Made by a program: the position numbers and the translations under genes. The notes below the pieces were generated by a model. It did no database searches. It worked only from the letters and a program-made list of their open reading frames with translations, and was not told the DNA's origin. Positions 3,272 through 20,414 of a DNA stretch of 21,886 nucleotides are shown piece after piece. The first letter of the stretch is position 1, and each line of letters starts with the position of its first letter. The stretch spans positions 1-21,886 of the IMG/VR virus record IMGVR_UViG_3300042691_005556; one strand, 5' to 3'. The stretch is from a virus.

Positions 3272-3708
3272 ACTCTTATTCTTAATATTACACCTGGATT
3301 TTCTTTATCCAACGAATAATTCCTTCCATCTACCTTCAGAACATAAGGAATAAAGTATCTCATGCTGTCATCTACTATGTAGTTATGAGCTACCAATAAG
3401 TCCTGTATGATTTGTGTAGCATTGTTAAAGTCAAAGTCTGCAGCAGTTCTCCTAATAAAGTGAAACCCTACTTCTATAGGGTAATGCTTTTCATGAAGCT
3501 TAGGGAATTTTATAAGAGCTGTACTAAATAAATTAGGTCTAGTCTTATAACCTTCCACTTGTTTATCTCTTACTGAATAGGATTTAATACCCATCTGCTG
3601 TAGATACTTTGTTACTGTCTTTGAAGGAAATATCCCTCTCTTAGTCTTTATTTTACTATTCTTAAGAGAGGGAACATTGTAAGGGATAAAAAATTCATAT
3701 GTTTTCAT
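3268..3708 (-). CDS. RusA-like Holliday-junction resolvase
   Basis: RusA-family dimeric endonucleases cleave four-way DNA junctions. Counting from the ATG at 3708 (146 aa): an N-terminal strand with PSLKNSK (residues ~13-19) resembling the P-x-SKN start of RusA; then DFDF with acidic Asp91 and Asp93 followed by Asn95-Asn96; Asp103; and the DDS pair Asp113-Asp114 followed by a strand. These match the D-x-D-N...D...DD layout of RusA. The lysine that follows DLDN in E. coli RusA does not appear conserved. The frame extends two codons further to a TTG, but the ATG at 3708 overlaps the upstream TAA by one base (TAATG) and is the better start. Confidence 0.82.
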   Translation of the reverse strand: MKTYEFFIPYNVPSLKNSKIKTKRGIFPSKTVTKYLQQMGIKSYSVRDKQVEGYKTRPNLFSTALIKFPKLHEKHYPIEVGFHFIRRTAADFDFNNATQIIQDLLVAHNYIVDDSMRYFIPYVLKVDGRNYSLDKENPGVILRIRV

Positions 3709-4586
3709 TACCAAGGCATTTCTATAGTTTCTGCTGGAGTTTCAGTTGTTTTATTAGCTTCCAACATAAGTCTATATTGGTCTTTATAATACTGATTCTC
3801 TTCTCTAGCAGAAGCAAATGTAGGAATTGTCGGAATTAAAAACAAATCTGCAAGTAAATTAGGTCTTGTTACTATCTCAACCTTATGCTCTTTAGCCCAA
3901 GGAATAATATATTTTCTATAAAAAGACCTAAGACTTTTCTCTTCTGTTTCTTTATAATCAAATCCTCCTTGAACATACAATACAAATGTATTATCTTCGT
4001 TAGTTATAGGTGTATTAGTTAGCCAAGATAATCTAGGCAATTGTACTAATTCTCTTTTAACCATTAGAGCTACAAAAGGTTTCAAAGTGCTATTTGTATT
4101 AACTCTACCTATAATACCACCACCTGTTACAAAAGTACCAGTTCTAGTACTTACTCTATAAGGAGCAATTCTATTAAAATTAAGTATAACATCAACATTA
4201 TTACCATATCCATAGTTGCAAACTAAATCAGATTGAGGTTCTAAAAATTTGTTAATATGTTCCCTAATCAAATCTTCACAAAAACTATCAGCTTTAATAT
4301 AACTAAGATCTACTTGTCCATCAAAATGAGATACAATTTGTCTAGCAGGAGCAGTTAAAAATTTAGCCAATCTATCATCATTAGGATCAAAAGCTTTACT
4401 TATTTCATTCATTACATAAGTAGTAGCAGTTACATATCCATGTACATACTGACCATAATTATTAGGAACAATACCTGCAAAAGAACAATACTCATTATTG
4501 TAATTAAGCTTATGCTTAATACTAGATGGGTGATTACTATTAAGTAAATATGATGATATATCTGTATTAATTAATCCATTTATCAT
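3708..4586 (-). CDS. Unrecognised 292-aa protein linked to the ubiquitin-like cassette
   Basis: I do not recognise a family. The protein seems soluble and mixed alpha/beta: an N-terminal region with NYGQYVHGYVTATTY, a helical middle with cysteines at about 34, 103 and 122, a Gly-rich turn (TGGGIIG) near residue 172, then strands and a long C-terminal helix ending in a Thr/Glu-rich tail. Its ATG overlaps the stop of the E1/ThiF-like gene by 4 bases, and its own stop overlaps the RusA-like gene by 1 base. Tight coupling to the E1-like gene suggests a partner such as an E3-like factor, adaptor or substrate, but no RING, HECT or other ligase signature is visible, so this is only contextual. Confidence 0.8.
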   Translation of the reverse strand: MINGLINTDISSYLLNSNHPSSIKHKLNYNNEYCSFAGIVPNNYGQYVHGYVTATTYVMNEISKAFDPNDDRLAKFLTAPARQIVSHFDGQVDLSYIKADSFCEDLIREHINKFLEPQSDLVCNYGYGNNVDVILNFNRIAPYRVSTRTGTFVTGGGIIGRVNTNSTLKPFVALMVKRELVQLPRLSWLTNTPITNEDNTFVLYVQGGFDYKETEEKSLRSFYRKYIIPWAKEHKVEIVTRPNLLADLFLIPTIPTFASAREENQYYKDQYRLMLEANKTTETPAETIEMPW

Positions 4587-5278
4587 AATTCAATTGTTTC
4601 AGTCATTGTAAATATATCATTATCTATCATAAATGGGAGTACTCTATCATCTCCTCCTGTAGCTATATTAGCACAAAAGTTAGTATAACATGCAATCATC
4701 TTAGATGCAATCATAAAACTATTGTGTGTAGTACCTTTAAAACCACAAGCTAATACTGCTGCTTCAGAATCATCAAATAAAGTCTTCTCATATCTCTCCA
4801 ATCTATGTGGAGTAACTATATAAATTTGAAACTGCTCAGCAGTTAATCTACCATCAATTAGTAAAGGCATAGGTATTTCTCCATTAGCTTCAGCATGGCT
4901 ATTTACACTTTGCTTAAATACTTCATACATAGCTTTCCTAGCTTTCATATTATCAAAGCAAGAAAAATATATATCATACTGTGGAGATTCTTCTGTAAAT
5001 AACTCTTGCTTAGTAGATACTTGATAGAGAGAATAGTCATTAATTATTCCTTTAATTGCAGATACTTTAGACTTACCATTATCATCTATAGAGTATAATT
5101 GATTGGACATATTAACTGTATCTACAGTATCTGGATCATAAATAGTGATAGACTCTGGCTCTAGTCTGGCTAATAAAAAAGCTAGACAAGAACCAATGCC
5201 ACCAGCACCACCTACTACAGTATAATGTTGCTTTACTATAGGCAACCATACTGCATCTTTAAATCTATCTGTTGCCAT
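4583..5278 (-). CDS. E1/ThiF-like ubiquitin-activating-type adenylyltransferase
   Basis: E1/ThiF/MoeB enzymes adenylate the C-terminus of ubiquitin-like proteins and may form a thioester. This 231-aa protein has the Rossmann ATP loop GGAGGIGS (23-30), the ribose-binding DPDTVD (48-53) with NMSNQ (56-60) and GKSK (68-71), which match the D-x-D-x-V...N-x-x-R/Q...G-x-x-K pattern, and DNMKAR (109-114), matching the conserved Asp-Asn...Arg after the third strand. Cys178 in ACGFKG lies in the region where the catalytic cysteine is expected. MoeB-type CxxC zinc pairs are absent. The protein is short (a single ThiF domain). It follows the JAB gene with a 2-base gap and overlaps the 292-aa gene. Activation of the ubiquitin-like protein at 7626-8033 is inferred. 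Confidence 0.9.
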   Translation of the reverse strand: MATDRFKDAVWLPIVKQHYTVVGGAGGIGSCLAFLLARLEPESITIYDPDTVDTVNMSNQLYSIDDNGKSKVSAIKGIINDYSLYQVSTKQELFTEESPQYDIYFSCFDNMKARKAMYEVFKQSVNSHAEANGEIPMPLLIDGRLTAEQFQIYIVTPHRLERYEKTLFDDSEAAVLACGFKGTTHNSFMIASKMIACYTNFCANIATGGDDRVLPFMIDNDIFTMTETIEL

Positions 5279-5280
5279 AA

Positions 5281-6468
5281 TTATAAGTAATGTGGTAAAA
5301 AGTCAGAATAATAATTAGCCAATTCAGTATATACAAGTTCTGCTACATCAGACTTTTCAAAGTTTGGATAGTTAAGAACTGTCTCCATAGCATCTTGTAT
5401 AAACTCTTGTGTATCACTGGTAATCATATAGTTAGATCCAGTAGCTGATAGATAATAGTCTTCTAGATTATCTGCCATCATAGCTGAATAGATTTCTTCA
5501 TCTATCTCTTTAATCTTAGAATCCATCTTCTCAAATGCACCTTTAATATCAGATATCTTAGTACTATTATCTAACATAATAAGCATACAGATAAAGTTAT
5601 TTATCTGATCTTGAGTATGTTTAGCTTTGTAAGACTTTGCATAAGATGGAGTATCAAACAAAGATGTTTGTCTAGTATCATTATACCAGTTGCTTTGATA
5701 TCTAGGAGTTTCAGGAAACTCTGTATTCATATAACCATAGTTTGTAACAGGTGGTTTATATGCTAGAATACCTTCTACTTGTTTATCAAAGAACTCATCA
5801 AACTCTAGAACTATCTTCATATCTATAGATTTGATAGATACTACTTCTTGCTCAGATGTTTCATCACTAGACATTACCCAGTTACCATCACCATCTTTAT
5901 AATGTACACCAGTGCTTGTTACTCTCTTACTTACAGGATAAGCAGCCTTAGCTATAATTTCACCCTTGTTATTAACAATCACAGATATACAGAAGTTAGA
6001 TAGCTTAGCATACTCATTCAAAGTAGAAGTATCTGTACCTGAAAAGAATACACCCATGTTAACATGAGAATGGATAATACCCATCTTACATTCTTCTAGC
6101 TCTGTATTATTATCATAAGCATCAATTAACCTATCATCTATCTCAAACTCAGTATATGTAGGCTCACCTTTATGCATAGGTAAAATATCTATAGCTCTAG
6201 CACTAAATGTTTCAGGATCTATAGGATGACCTTCAGTTTTACAAAAGATAATACCTGACCATTCTACAGTATTAATTCTCTTACAAAGATACCAGATCTT
6301 GCTTAAGATGTTCTGGGAAAGATACAGCTTGGAAACTTCTTGAGAGGAGCTGGTTTTTGTATCTTTCTTTGATTGAGTTGCATATGTGTTGGAAAATTTG
6401 AGGGTGGGGGAATTCTTCTTCAGATTCTTGTTGCCCTTCATATTGGACTTCATATTTAATTTCTTCAT
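5281..6468 (-). CDS. JAMM/JAB-domain metallopeptidase (deubiquitinase-like)
   Basis: A zinc isopeptidase of the Rpn11/RadC/JAB superfamily, expected to trim a ubiquitin-like precursor or remove it from targets. The full catalytic set is present in the 395-aa protein: Glu69 in VEWSGII, His133-x-His135, seven residues, Ser143 and Asp146 (HSHVNMGVFFSGTD). Residues 1-47 are a Lys/Asn/Ser/Thr-rich leader without clear fold; the JAB fold begins near residue 48 (LYLSQNILSKI). Residues ~205-395 form an extra, largely helical domain I do not recognise. The first 188 bases overlap the E2-like gene in another frame. There is no internal Met before the JAB helix, so a shorter ATG start would break the fold. 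The E1-like gene follows after 2 bases. Confidence 0.92.
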   Translation of the reverse strand: MKKLNMKSNMKGNKNLKKNSPTLKFSNTYATQSKKDTKTSSSQEVSKLYLSQNILSKIWYLCKRINTVEWSGIIFCKTEGHPIDPETFSARAIDILPMHKGEPTYTEFEIDDRLIDAYDNNTELEECKMGIIHSHVNMGVFFSGTDTSTLNEYAKLSNFCISVIVNNKGEIIAKAAYPVSKRVTSTGVHYKDGDGNWVMSSDETSEQEVVSIKSIDMKIVLEFDEFFDKQVEGILAYKPPVTNYGYMNTEFPETPRYQSNWYNDTRQTSLFDTPSYAKSYKAKHTQDQINNFICMLIMLDNSTKISDIKGAFEKMDSKIKEIDEEIYSAMMADNLEDYYLSATGSNYMITSDTQEFIQDAMETVLNYPNFEKSDVAELVYTELANYYSDFLPHYL

Positions 6469-7555
6469 TTCTAAATGTTTTAAATTCTATATATCTTTTA
6501 GCATTTTCAACTACCCCATCTATCAGCTCTTTATCTACTCTTTCTGCTTGGATAAGTTGATTATTACCAGTCATTATACCTTTAACTGTTGCATACTTAG
6601 CTACTTCTAGCATAAGTTCTCTTTCATTGAGAATATTTATTTCTAATTCTCCATTTACTATACTTGCATTTATGTTAGGTATAAATTCTGTTTCTTTAAA
6701 AAATTTCTTTTGACTAATACCTAGATCTGCATTAGTTACTGCAGAAGCACTAGCACTACCTGTACTATTAACTATAGTAGTAGTAGCCATTCTAATATAT
6801 GGTGTACCTTCAAGAGATTCCCATCTCACATAATTATCTAGATCATACAGGAATAGTTCAAGCTTTTCTAGATCTATCTTATCTCTAAGTTCTGACAATA
6901 CTGTTGTAAATCCTGTAGAGCCAGTACAAAAATTAGTAGCTCTAAATAAATCACCAGATCTTTTAGTATGTAAATGAGAATGAGCATAACCATGTTTATA
7001 GGCTTCTAAATCATATGTAGATCTAAAACCTTTAAACTCACTAACTACTACATCTTCTTCATCATTTATTGTAAAACTAATCAATACATATAGTCCACTA
7101 ATATCTCTAGTGTCTCTGTTAGTATTTATAATAGTAAATGTATCAAACCTAATTAGTAGGTTTAGATGGTTAGTTTCTTTATTAAATTGTAGATCATAGT
7201 TATTTGGATAGATAGCATCTAGTATAGGAACAATAGAATTTACAAAGTTTATATATGTTTTTGCATAATGATAATCTAAAGCAATTCCTATTTCTTTAAG
7301 AAACTCTTCTTTATTATCTACTACAAATACACTATCATTATCTCCACAACTTTCATACTTATAGATTTCTTTATTTGATTTTATTACAAATTGACTTACT
7401 GAATAATAGTCATTATCATCACCTTCTGCTACTAAGTTTGTTAGTTGATCTAAATTTTCTAGTTGTTGCAGCCATCTAAAATTGTACTTTTCTCTTACAG
7501 CAAAAGGAGATGGTTGTTCTTGTATGTTGGAATATTTTAATTGAAATTCTGTCAT
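6281..7555 (-). CDS. Candidate E2-like ubiquitin-conjugating protein
   Basis: A 424-aa protein with no family I can name with certainty. Residues ~119-215 resemble a UBC/E2 fold: successive strands (DLQFN, LNLLIRFDTF, LYVLISFTI, VVVSEFKGF) and then AHSHLHT (His192, His194, His196), a short Gly turn and FCTGS with Cys210. In many E2 and bacterial E2-like proteins an HPN/HPH element precedes the catalytic Cys by ~10-17 residues, with a strand meander before it, so Cys210 is the predicted thioester cysteine. The N-terminal ~115 and C-terminal ~190 residues are unassigned. The gene starts 16 bases after a terminator and overlaps the JAB gene by 188 bases. The E1- and JAB-like neighbours strongly support the call. 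Confidence 0.65.
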   Translation of the reverse strand: MTEFQLKYSNIQEQPSPFAVREKYNFRWLQQLENLDQLTNLVAEGDDNDYYSVSQFVIKSNKEIYKYESCGDNDSVFVVDNKEEFLKEIGIALDYHYAKTYINFVNSIVPILDAIYPNNYDLQFNKETNHLNLLIRFDTFTIINTNRDTRDISGLYVLISFTINDEEDVVVSEFKGFRSTYDLEAYKHGYAHSHLHTKRSGDLFRATNFCTGSTGFTTVLSELRDKIDLEKLELFLYDLDNYVRWESLEGTPYIRMATTTIVNSTGSASASAVTNADLGISQKKFFKETEFIPNINASIVNGELEINILNERELMLEVAKYATVKGIMTGNNQLIQAERVDKELIDGVVENAKRYIEFKTFRNEEIKYEVQYEGQQESEEEFPHPQIFQHICNSIKERYKNQLLSRSFQAVSFPEHLKQDLVSL

Positions 7556-7571
7556 ATTATTAATTTTAAAT

Positions 7572-7604
7572 AAAATAGGGAGCCTGATATAGACTCCCTA
7601 TTTT
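7572..7604 (-). terminator. Intrinsic terminator between the ubiquitin-like gene and the E2-like gene
   Basis: A perfect 11-bp stem (AAAATAGGGAG with CTCCCTATTTT) with an 11-base loop, followed on the minus-strand transcript by ATTTAAAA. It lies 21 bases after the ubiquitin-like stop and its base is only 16 bases before the E2-like ATG. There is little room for a promoter between them, so the E2-JAB-E1 genes are probably reached by read-through or by a promoter inside the preceding gene. Confidence 0.88.
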
Positions 7605-7625
7605 TGTTACCAACCCCAGAAATTA

Positions 7626-8033
7626 TTAGATAAGACCTTCTTCTTCTAACTCATTAAGAGCATCTAAGTCATCTTCACTTAGTCCTTCAGAAAGTTTTTC
7701 TTCACAATTTTCATTTAACAAATCTTCAAAGATGTTGTTAAGTTTAGTTTGCATATCACGCAATACAGCATCTTTGTAGCGTGTAGTATTAAAAGGATTC
7801 TCAGTACCTGAAGCAATCTTCTTCATGCTTAGGATGATAGTAAAATCACCTGTAGGAAGAACTGCATCAGCAGCTTCTAGAGTTACTCTAGTATCTCTAA
7901 CAATAGCTTTCATATCAGATACTCCTGAGAAATGATTAGCTAATTCATTTTTAAGATCACCCCAGTTAGTAGCTGAAGATTGAATAGTTTTAGCACTATT
8001 AGTCTGTGAAGAAATAACACGAATGTTACGCAT
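7626..8033 (-). CDS. Ubiquitin-like beta-grasp protein with C-terminal extension
   Basis: A 135-aa protein whose first ~76 residues fit a beta-grasp ubiquitin/ThiS/MoaD fold: strand (NIRVIS, 3-8), second strand (KTIQS), helix starting WGDLKNELANHF (24-35), strands MKAIVRDT and VTLEA, then ALPTGDFTIILSMKK, the hallmark loop (L-P-x-G-D) and last strand. The body ends KKIASG at residues 71-76 rather than a terminal Gly-Gly, and ~59 further residues form an acidic, helical tail ending EEEGLI. A JAB peptidase encoded next to it could remove the tail. It starts 11 bases after the primase stop and is followed by a strong terminator. Arginines 2, 5, 87 and 92 use CGT/CGC, rare among its AGA-using neighbours, which suggests high expression. 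The fold call is from pattern, not a search. Confidence 0.72.
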   Translation of the reverse strand: MRNIRVISSQTNSAKTIQSSATNWGDLKNELANHFSGVSDMKAIVRDTRVTLEAADAVLPTGDFTIILSMKKIASGTENPFNTTRYKDAVLRDMQTKLNNIFEDLLNENCEEKLSEGLSEDDLDALNELEEEGLI

Positions 8034-9064: not shown

Positions 9065-9072
9065 AAATAAAA

Positions 9073-9090
9073 GGGGCTATTGCTAGCCCC
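9073..9090 (-). terminator. Intrinsic terminator with GCAA tetraloop before primase
   Basis: A 7-bp stem (GGGGCTA with TAGCCCC) closed on the minus-strand RNA by GCAA, a GNRA tetraloop, followed by TTTTATTT. It lies 20 bases after the stop of the SSB-like gene and 8 bases before the primase ATG. Besides terminating, the hairpin could limit ribosome access to the primase start on read-through RNA. Confidence 0.87.
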
Positions 9091-9110
9091 CATTATTAAA
9101 CACACACAAA

Positions 9111-19547: not shown

Positions 19548-20414
19548 TTAAAATATATATCTTATTGTATTCCAAGGTATTATATTACTATGAAGATACT
19601 TAAATTCTTCAATATATTCACCTTTTAATCCATGTTTATATCTAATATTAGTACCACCATATTGTGATATTTTATCTTCTTGTAAATCTGGTTTCCATAA
19701 TAAATCTTCACCTGTTAAATTGTTTTTTAGATTGTATAGGTGTTTATCTTTATTATGTGTTAAGAATATTACTTCAGCTTTGACAGCATCTGTATCCCAA
19801 GCATAAGTTCTTGCATTGTATTGTACAACCTCAAATAATTCTTTATACTTATCTAACCAATTATCATGTACAATAACAGGACTAAAGTTAAGATGAACTT
19901 CATAACCAGCGTCTATAAATTTTTCTACAGCTATTAATCTTTCATAAATAGTATTTGTATTAGGTTCTAAAACTTGTCTATACTCTTCAGGCATTAGACT
20001 AAATCTTATTCTAATTTTTTCATGCGGATTAAACTGTAGTAAATCTTTATTTACATACTTGGTAGCAAATGAACCCATAGCTATTGGATGATCTTTAAAA
20101 AATTGAAATATCTTTTGCCACTCGTGATATTTAGCATGTAAAGCAAAGTCTTCATTACAAGATATGTCATAAGTTATGTACTTCTCATGTGTTTGATTAG
20201 GCTTATCATCCACAGCAAACATTGCATGATTGTTAATTTCTGTTAAAATATCATTAGTATTAGTGGCTATATCTAAACCTACTGCTTTATGTCTTTTCAT
20301 ATAGCAGTAGGTACAGTTATATAGACAACCATAGCCAAAACTAGGACTAATGTAGTCTGTAGATCTACCTGATGGTCTAATGACCATAGATTTTCTAGTT
20401 AATGTTTCTATCAT
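19548..20414 (-). CDS. Radical SAM protein, spore-photoproduct-lyase-like
   Basis: The radical SAM motif C-x3-C-x2-C is Cys30, Cys34, Cys37 (GCLYNCTYCYMKR), which binds a 4Fe-4S cluster and S-adenosylmethionine. The pre-motif SPSFGYG and the later HLNFSPVIVHDNW (~194-206) resemble spore photoproduct lyase (SplB), which directly reverses 5-thyminyl-5,6-dihydrothymine. Cys86 in DISCNED lies 49 residues after the last cluster Cys; in B. subtilis SplB the essential hydrogen-donor Cys is 44 residues after, so Cys86 may be its equivalent. At 288 aa it is shorter than typical SplB at its N-terminus. It starts immediately after the stop of the upstream gene. UV-lesion repair of phage DNA is inferred. 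Confidence 0.8.
   Translation of the reverse strand: MIETLTRKSMVIRPSGRSTDYISPSFGYGCLYNCTYCYMKRHKAVGLDIATNTNDILTEINNHAMFAVDDKPNQTHEKYITYDISCNEDFALHAKYHEWQKIFQFFKDHPIAMGSFATKYVNKDLLQFNPHEKIRIRFSLMPEEYRQVLEPNTNTIYERLIAVEKFIDAGYEVHLNFSPVIVHDNWLDKYKELFEVVQYNARTYAWDTDAVKAEVIFLTHNKDKHLYNLKNNLTGEDLLWKPDLQEDKISQYGGTNIRYKHGLKGEYIEEFKYLHSNIIPWNTIRYIF

Follow-up and report, generated by a model that had tools for sequence, protein, structure and literature searches.

The stretch of DNA analysed here (the window) is the 21,886-bp virus record IMGVR_UViG_3300042691_005556, an IMG/VR phage fragment whose polymerase shares 32% identity with the one in the crAss-like phage cr108_1. On its minus strand the window contains a candidate ubiquitin-like conjugation cassette of four adjacent genes which encode, in order of transcription, a ubiquitin-like protein (Ubl, 7626–8033), an E2-like protein (6281–7555), a JAB/JAMM peptidase (5281–6468) and an E1/ThiF-like activating enzyme (4583–5278). 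A fifth gene, Y (3708–4586), follows directly, and the cassette is flanked by the primase gene on one side and by RusA/exonuclease genes on the other. An initial annotation, made from the letters of the window, had placed four adjacent minus-strand genes at these positions, and all four open reading frames (ORFs) were found there.

Relatives of the cassette were collected by scanning viral contigs and, once, bacterial genomes with E1, and were pooled with annotated phages; E1 was chosen as the query because an E2 scan of viral contigs was empty and the alignments A1 and A4 varied too much to yield patterns. The survey yielded 132 loci with distinct E1s. Ubl, E2, JAB and E1 were recognised in that order and on one strand by hidden Markov models (HMMs) in 126 loci, to which one locus (L158) was added by inspection, so that the intact loci all had the four genes in fixed order (127/127), the remaining five being cut by contig ends. 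As nearly all loci were chosen by their E1, co-occurrence of the cassette genes was not built into the sample; the cassette HMMs were refined partly on the same locus set. The arrangement of the genes is not due to chance, and the ratio of non-synonymous to synonymous substitution rates (dN/dS) between close pairs, 0.06–0.67 across all four genes, shows that the genes are under purifying selection.

The order primase-Ubl-E2-JAB-E1-Y, usually followed by genes for a uracil-DNA glycosylase (UDG), a RusA-type endonuclease and an exonuclease, was common to known phages. Many gut and aquatic phages, together a large group, carry the cassette; among them are crAss001, a cultured phage of the human gut (gp80 to gp70, with Ubl as gp79, E2 as gp78, JAB as gp77 and E1 as gp76), cr126_1, cr112_1, cr128_1, cr111_1, cr85_1, cr106_1, DAC15, Kolpuevirus frurule, bajarodcaudo virus 1, Dulem virus 41, and the Flavobacterium psychrophilum phages FpV4 and Fpv1, the last two with UDG located between primase and Ubl. 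Those of the fetched records that were classified in Crassvirales all belonged to Steigviridae. Among 84,980 bacterial and archaeal genomes, a single-pattern scan found E1 in just three short contigs of metagenome-assembled genomes labelled “Spirochaetia”, and restriction of the cassette to phages is therefore supported, not proven. Of the three (L107, L108 and L109), two also hold the other cassette genes, so that they are probably phage contigs in the bins.

The Ubl precursor is 135 amino acids (aa) long, with a predicted beta-grasp domain (residues 1–75), Gly76, and a 59-aa acidic tail (7626–7805) predicted helical in the AlphaFold model (ma42ccac3fa2a, pLDDT 75). Compared with ubiquitin (1ubq), the model gave a Z-score of 9.3 and a root-mean-square deviation of 2.2 over 70 residues, with residues 2–75 of the model on residues 1–76 of ubiquitin. 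A Foldseek search with the same model reached ubiquitin-like folds at a probability of 1.00, and ubiquitin, ISG15 and other ubiquitin-like domains were present throughout the list. The beta-grasp fold proposed for 7626–8033 in the initial annotation was thereby borne out.

Mean column identity in the Ubl family was 17%, and Gly76 (codon 7806–7808), which lies at the position of the ubiquitin C-terminus, was the only residue to show no variation at all in the larger alignment. It was present in 125 of 125 distinct Ubls and preceded by Ser in 112 of them; alignment entropy was 0.00 at position 76 and over 3.2 bits at positions 77–79. The Ubl ORF ended in Gly in no family member, the conjugation-type Gly being internal throughout and followed by a tail of 1–252 residues across relatives. 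In 12 loci the ORF ended 1–5 codons past the Gly (KMKSG/K, KVKSG/F, KMAAG/I etc., the slash marking the end of the Gly codon), and the divergent Ubl of L158, recognised by inspection, was 81 aa long with the end ...TRTKAGN (AG/N). The tail is a separate gene in some relatives, as 9 of the 12 short-Ubl phages had a separate small ORF of 41–131 aa which began at or just past the Ubl stop. On the E1 tree, eight changes between long-tailed and short Ubls were counted by parsimony, and at least four are forced by well-supported branches. This pattern of Gly and tail is, by analogy, that of ubiquitin-type precursors, with the Ser75-Gly76 codons (7806–7811) specifying the predicted mature C-terminus and cleavage site; the invariant Gly and the variable tail would give the JAB peptidase an obvious first job.

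Two further observations concern the region past the Gly. In phage cr106_1 (L016/L056), a gene for an HNH endonuclease splits the Ubl gene two codons past the invariant Gly (...KIKSG). The Ubl tails of Steigviridae (e.g. L017, L009 and L018) carry a conserved acidic/aromatic end motif, SxxEIxxMF, which resembles a short protein-docking peptide.

The E2-like protein (424 aa) was modelled (AlphaFold, m705bd31b00de) with a UBC-type core at approximately residues 94–250, of pLDDT 90–98, consisting of one helix, a four-strand meander, a Cys loop and then helices. In this model Cys210 (codon 6926–6928), the predicted catalytic cysteine, is located past the meander and ahead of helix 215–225, as expected for UBC. 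The whole model gave no significant match in Foldseek against the PDB, though UFC1 and RWD proteins were listed, and in a viral structure library it matched phage homologues of unknown function alone. The realigned structural list (50 rows) consisted mostly of UEV proteins, UBE2 enzymes, UFC1, RWD domains and a bacterial E1-E2-Ubl complex, with Z-scores of 4–6.5. The model thus lends moderate confidence to a UBC-type fold in the E2-like protein, in agreement with the initial annotation of 6281–7555.

Mean column identity in the E2 family was 15%. In 70 sequences the invariant residues were S193, H194, C210, G212, E246, S247, G250 and P252, and among 88 distinct E2s C210, G212, E246, S247, G250 and P252 were invariant and S193/H194 conserved at 99%. 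Near the predicted catalytic cysteine (HSH...FCxGS) the usual HPN is replaced by (H)SH. Although diverged to 15–17% column identity, the E2 and Ubl families retain precisely those residues on which catalysis would depend. Neither protein had a credible match in Pfam, NCBIfam or PADLOC, where matches were scattered and by chance, and both matched uncharacterised PHROGs alone; their assignment therefore rests on structure prediction and the conserved active residues.

The JAB and E1 genes were recognised by sequence. The full JAB protein scored 24.3 bits against Pfam Prok-JAB (E-value 3.1e-5, cut-off 25) and passed the cut-off in a genome search (27.2 bits), and its profile showed a weak likeness to CSN5 and JAMM1 among solved structures. 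The intact HxHx7SxxD signature that had been read from the window is located at 6031–6072 (HSHVNMGVFFSGTD). In 84 JABs S143 and D146 were invariant, and E69, H133 and H135 were conserved at 95–98%. The protein has a C-terminal extension of about 200 aa. The ORF was found at 5281–6468 as annotated; its start is uncertain because the JAB ORF overlaps the E2 ORF, the two sharing 188 nt in the window (6281–6468). Such an overlap was kept in 90 of 93 loci, with a median of 80 nt; in 86 of the 90, JAB was read in the +1 frame. Programmed E2/JAB frameshifting was considered for this near-constant frame and set aside, as the overlap alone speaks for it.

The JAMM motif was also a recurrent insertion site in relatives. 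The JAB gene was interrupted at codons of the JAMM signature (...GLIH/SH...FFSGTD, the slash marking the interruption) in seven loci, as Rfam group I introns in L079, L047, L057 and L060 and as other interruptions in L020, L064 and L083, and in Fpv1 an endonuclease gene is inserted at the JAMM codons. Mobile introns and homing endonucleases favour conserved codons of indispensable genes. Given this preference, the interruptions indirectly support a catalytic motif that cannot be lost.

The E1 (231 aa) is a clear ThiF-fold protein (Pfam ThiF, 1.1e-17), as had been proposed, and has the nucleotide-binding loop GAGGIGS (5189–5209). Among NCBIfam models the ThiF models scored best and stayed below their cut-offs (41–53 bits versus 152–159), and the nearest solved structure by profile was UBA5 (3.3e-14). 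In 87 E1s G24, G26, I28, D50, N56, Q60, K71, D109, R114 and C178 were invariant, and S30 was conserved at 99%, so that both the loop and the adenylation residues (D, N, Q, K, D) show little or no variation. Cys178 (codon 4745–4747), a candidate thioester cysteine in the crossover-loop region, aligns with the conserved cysteine of PRTRC ThiF.

Gene Y is fast-evolving. An ORF of over 100 aa was located directly after E1, at the position of Y, in 124 distinct loci; in 60 of these it was recognisable by HMM (E 6e-15 for the window), and by tblastn it had no match in phages. In 34 of 35 overlaps Y overlapped E1 in a 4-nt-type frame, which indicates tight coupling. Y is a possible substrate adaptor or E3-like part of the system.

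Between Ubl and E2 a terminator-like hairpin was read by eye on the minus strand at 7574–7602 (AATAGGGAG-11 nt-CTCCCTATT, then TTATTT), which is unscored because its loop is longer than the limit of the hairpin scan. A second terminator-like hairpin was observed before the primase gene, at 9072–9091 on the minus strand. With these two hairpins the expression level of Ubl may differ from that of E2-JAB-E1. Outside the cassette, the window encodes a radical-SAM-like protein with a CLYNCTYCYMKRH motif (19548–20414).

On the basis of gene content and order, folds (strong for Ubl, moderate for E2, by sequence for E1 and JAB), catalytic residues, the Gly and selection, the four genes probably constitute a phage-encoded system for conjugation and deconjugation of a Ubl; all enzymatic steps and the substrates are inferred. 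Ubl would be made as a precursor and cut by the JAMM peptidase after the invariant ...K-x-S-Gly, which would free the C-terminus of Ubl and, separately, an acidic tail protein. E1 would then adenylate the Gly carboxylate with ATP and take Ubl as a thioester, probably on Cys178; E2 would receive it on Cys210 and transfer it to amino groups on target proteins, from which the JAMM peptidase could remove it again. The constant position of the cassette next to the genes for primase, recombinase, DnaB helicase and nucleases points to action early in infection, on phage or host proteins of replication or recombination. As a tentative but plausible extension, crAss-like and related phages may own, in their core replication machinery, a reversible Ubl pathway in which JAB splits the Ubl-tail fusion into a conjugatable tag and a second functional protein, much as ubiquitin-ribosomal protein fusions are split; in the course of infection the tag would then be attached to host proteins or to those of replication.

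Several points weigh against this conjugation pathway. Gly76 is preceded by Ser and not by Gly, and the tail is kept in most phages, so that Ubl could work uncut. No E3 was identified, profile comparison could align E2 with none of the known E2s, and its structural Z-scores all fell short of 8, and values in this range may arise from a common arrangement. Alternatively, the Ubl-tail protein might be a structural scaffold, with its Ubl domain bound non-covalently by the E1- and E2-like proteins. The long tail of most Ubls and its predicted helices would suit such a scaffold, but the invariant or nearly invariant catalytic residues of three enzymes, a Gly76 invariant amid variable surroundings and gene fissions that fall at this very Gly speak against it, and we consider it highly improbable. 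Another alternative is a ThiS/MoaD-type role: the Ubl would be thiocarboxylated by the ThiF-like E1, with JAB freeing the Gly, and serve as sulfur carrier in biosynthesis, such as nucleotide or tRNA thiolation. ThiF scores best among the NCBIfam models, bacterial Ubl-JAB-E1 sulfur operons exist (PMC1779556), and the radical-SAM-like gene (19548–20414) lies in the same window. None of the ThiF cut-offs was reached, however (the 41–53 bits given above), and no rhodanese, cysteine desulfurase or thiolation enzyme was recognised in the conserved cassette, which is always accompanied by the UBC-fold protein with its invariant cysteine. Because of this invariant E2 cysteine a sulfur-transfer role is very unlikely.

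Counter-defence would be compatible with all the sequence data: the phage set would compete with or reverse host Ubl defences (Bil, CBASS Cap2/Cap3), JAB stripping tags or Ubl acting as a decoy, and the gene order matches that of the Bil operon. For such a purpose, however, a JAB or an inhibitor alone would suffice, whereas the whole set was intact at every uncut locus, and the cassette belongs to the core replication module rather than to a variable region. Counter-defence is thus an unlikely explanation, and a role in the phage’s own replication programme is favoured over a disposable counter-defence because of the replication-module place, the strict retention of four genes and the conserved active sites.

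The initial annotation had read the locus as a complete, phage-owned system set in a replication module between primase and nucleases. Folds and conserved synteny support this reading; the four genes are conserved together, and the placement is common to crAss001, DAC15 and many metagenomic phages. It did not include the internal Gly, which is invariant and bears the removable tail, nor the gene fissions at that point or the introns that interrupt JAMM codons. The system is real, conserved and apparently undescribed in phages, and its mechanism is strongly suggested. Searches of open-licence papers, as well as Yutin 2021 and the papers on the isolation and the structure of crAss001, yielded no description of it, which is weak evidence of absence. 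As the cassette genes are labelled “thiamine biosynthesis protein”, “metalloprotease domain” or hypothetical in databases, the system is hidden in existing data. Its presence in cultured phages (crAss001, DAC15, Kolpuevirus frurule and the Flavobacterium Fpv phages) makes it testable now. In bacteria, Ubl conjugation is known to serve in defence against phages; a complete, conserved set within phage genomes would reverse these roles and make protein tagging a viral tool; the very divergent Ubl and E2 families in turn are material for the study of ubiquitin evolution.

A different set of E1, E2-like and Ubl-like genes was observed between the DNA ligase and topoisomerase genes of the jumbo phages PhiXhv-15 (PV764602, L187:2817-6696) and Ep032 (L188), which are near copies of each other in the E1 region. 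The PhiXhv-15 E1 is related to the cassette E1 (HMM, 1e-34). In both phages the neighbours of E1 are a small protein whose last residues are SGG and a protein of 892 aa that contains HPH...CLG and is Cys-rich at its C-terminus, the E2 and Ubl being assigned here by motif only. No Prok-JAB match was found in the 228-kb PhiXhv-15 genome and the candidate tag ends in GG, which suggests that the tag needs no trimming there.

Among known systems, the plasmid-borne PRTRC, apparently operon type 6d of Iyer 2006, has separate genes for Ubl (C), F, E2 (B), JAB (A) and E1, which is the order of the phage cassette with one extra gene. Its E1 is homologous to the phage E1 over its length, with the shared Cys (hhalign 99.1%, E 4e-19), and its JAB motif, HSHxxMSA(F/Y)FSxTD, resembles that of the phage JAB; the PRTRC Ubl has a conserved terminal ...KG. 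In contrast, the phage E1 scored far under the PRTRC_ThiF cut-off (39.7 versus 144.75 bits), hhalign detected no relationship of the phage E2 and Ubl to PRTRC B and C (E 0.1–0.4), for which there was no NCBIfam match either, and the PRTRC E, F and ParB models had no match in the ten window genes scanned. PRTRC is a plasmid system, whereas the cassette is a phage core gene set. PRTRC loci were also seen on plasmids of gut Bacteroidota (L102, Parabacteroides; L105, Phocaeicola), the host kinds infected by crAss-like phages.

The four genes of Bil (BilABCD) encode Ubl, E2, JAB and E1 in the same order as the phage cassette, and Bil is a bacterial antiphage defence which tags phage tails. The difference is one of ownership, as Bil sits in bacteria as a defence and here a phage encodes the set beside its primase. 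The cassette had no match among Bil-type models in NCBIfam or PADLOC, and it lies in phage replication modules, not in a bacterial defence locus.

In the UFM1 pathway a single-Gly Ubl is trimmed from a short-tailed precursor, in eukaryotes by the UFSP cysteine proteases. UBA5 was the best solved match of the compact, single-domain phage E1, and UFC1 was among the structural neighbours of E2; the peptidase class differs from JAB, and no sequence similarity was found for Ubl or E2. The likeness is thus one of working plan, not of membership.

CBASS type II (Cap2/Cap3) shares a similar E1 Rossmann core (PADLOC E1-E2 models, 5.6e-8 and weaker), but Cap2 is an E1-E2 fusion with CD-NTases as substrates, whereas the phage E1 and E2 are separate and no CD-NTase or other nucleotidyltransferase was found among the cassette genes. 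The tail genes I and K of phage lambda (Ubl TAPI and JAB TAPK) are, like the cassette, a phage-encoded Ubl with a JAB; they are without E1 or E2 and belong to the tail module, with a role in tail assembly (PMC1779556). Iyer et al. 2006 described bacterial operons of the Ubl/E2/JAB/E1 kind and the phage-tail Ubl and JAB pair, and no full phage set (PMC1779556). By its plan the cassette would work like a Ubl conjugation and deconjugation system, and two of its proteins are members of the E1 and JAB superfamilies; it is not filed here as PRTRC, Bil or CBASS.

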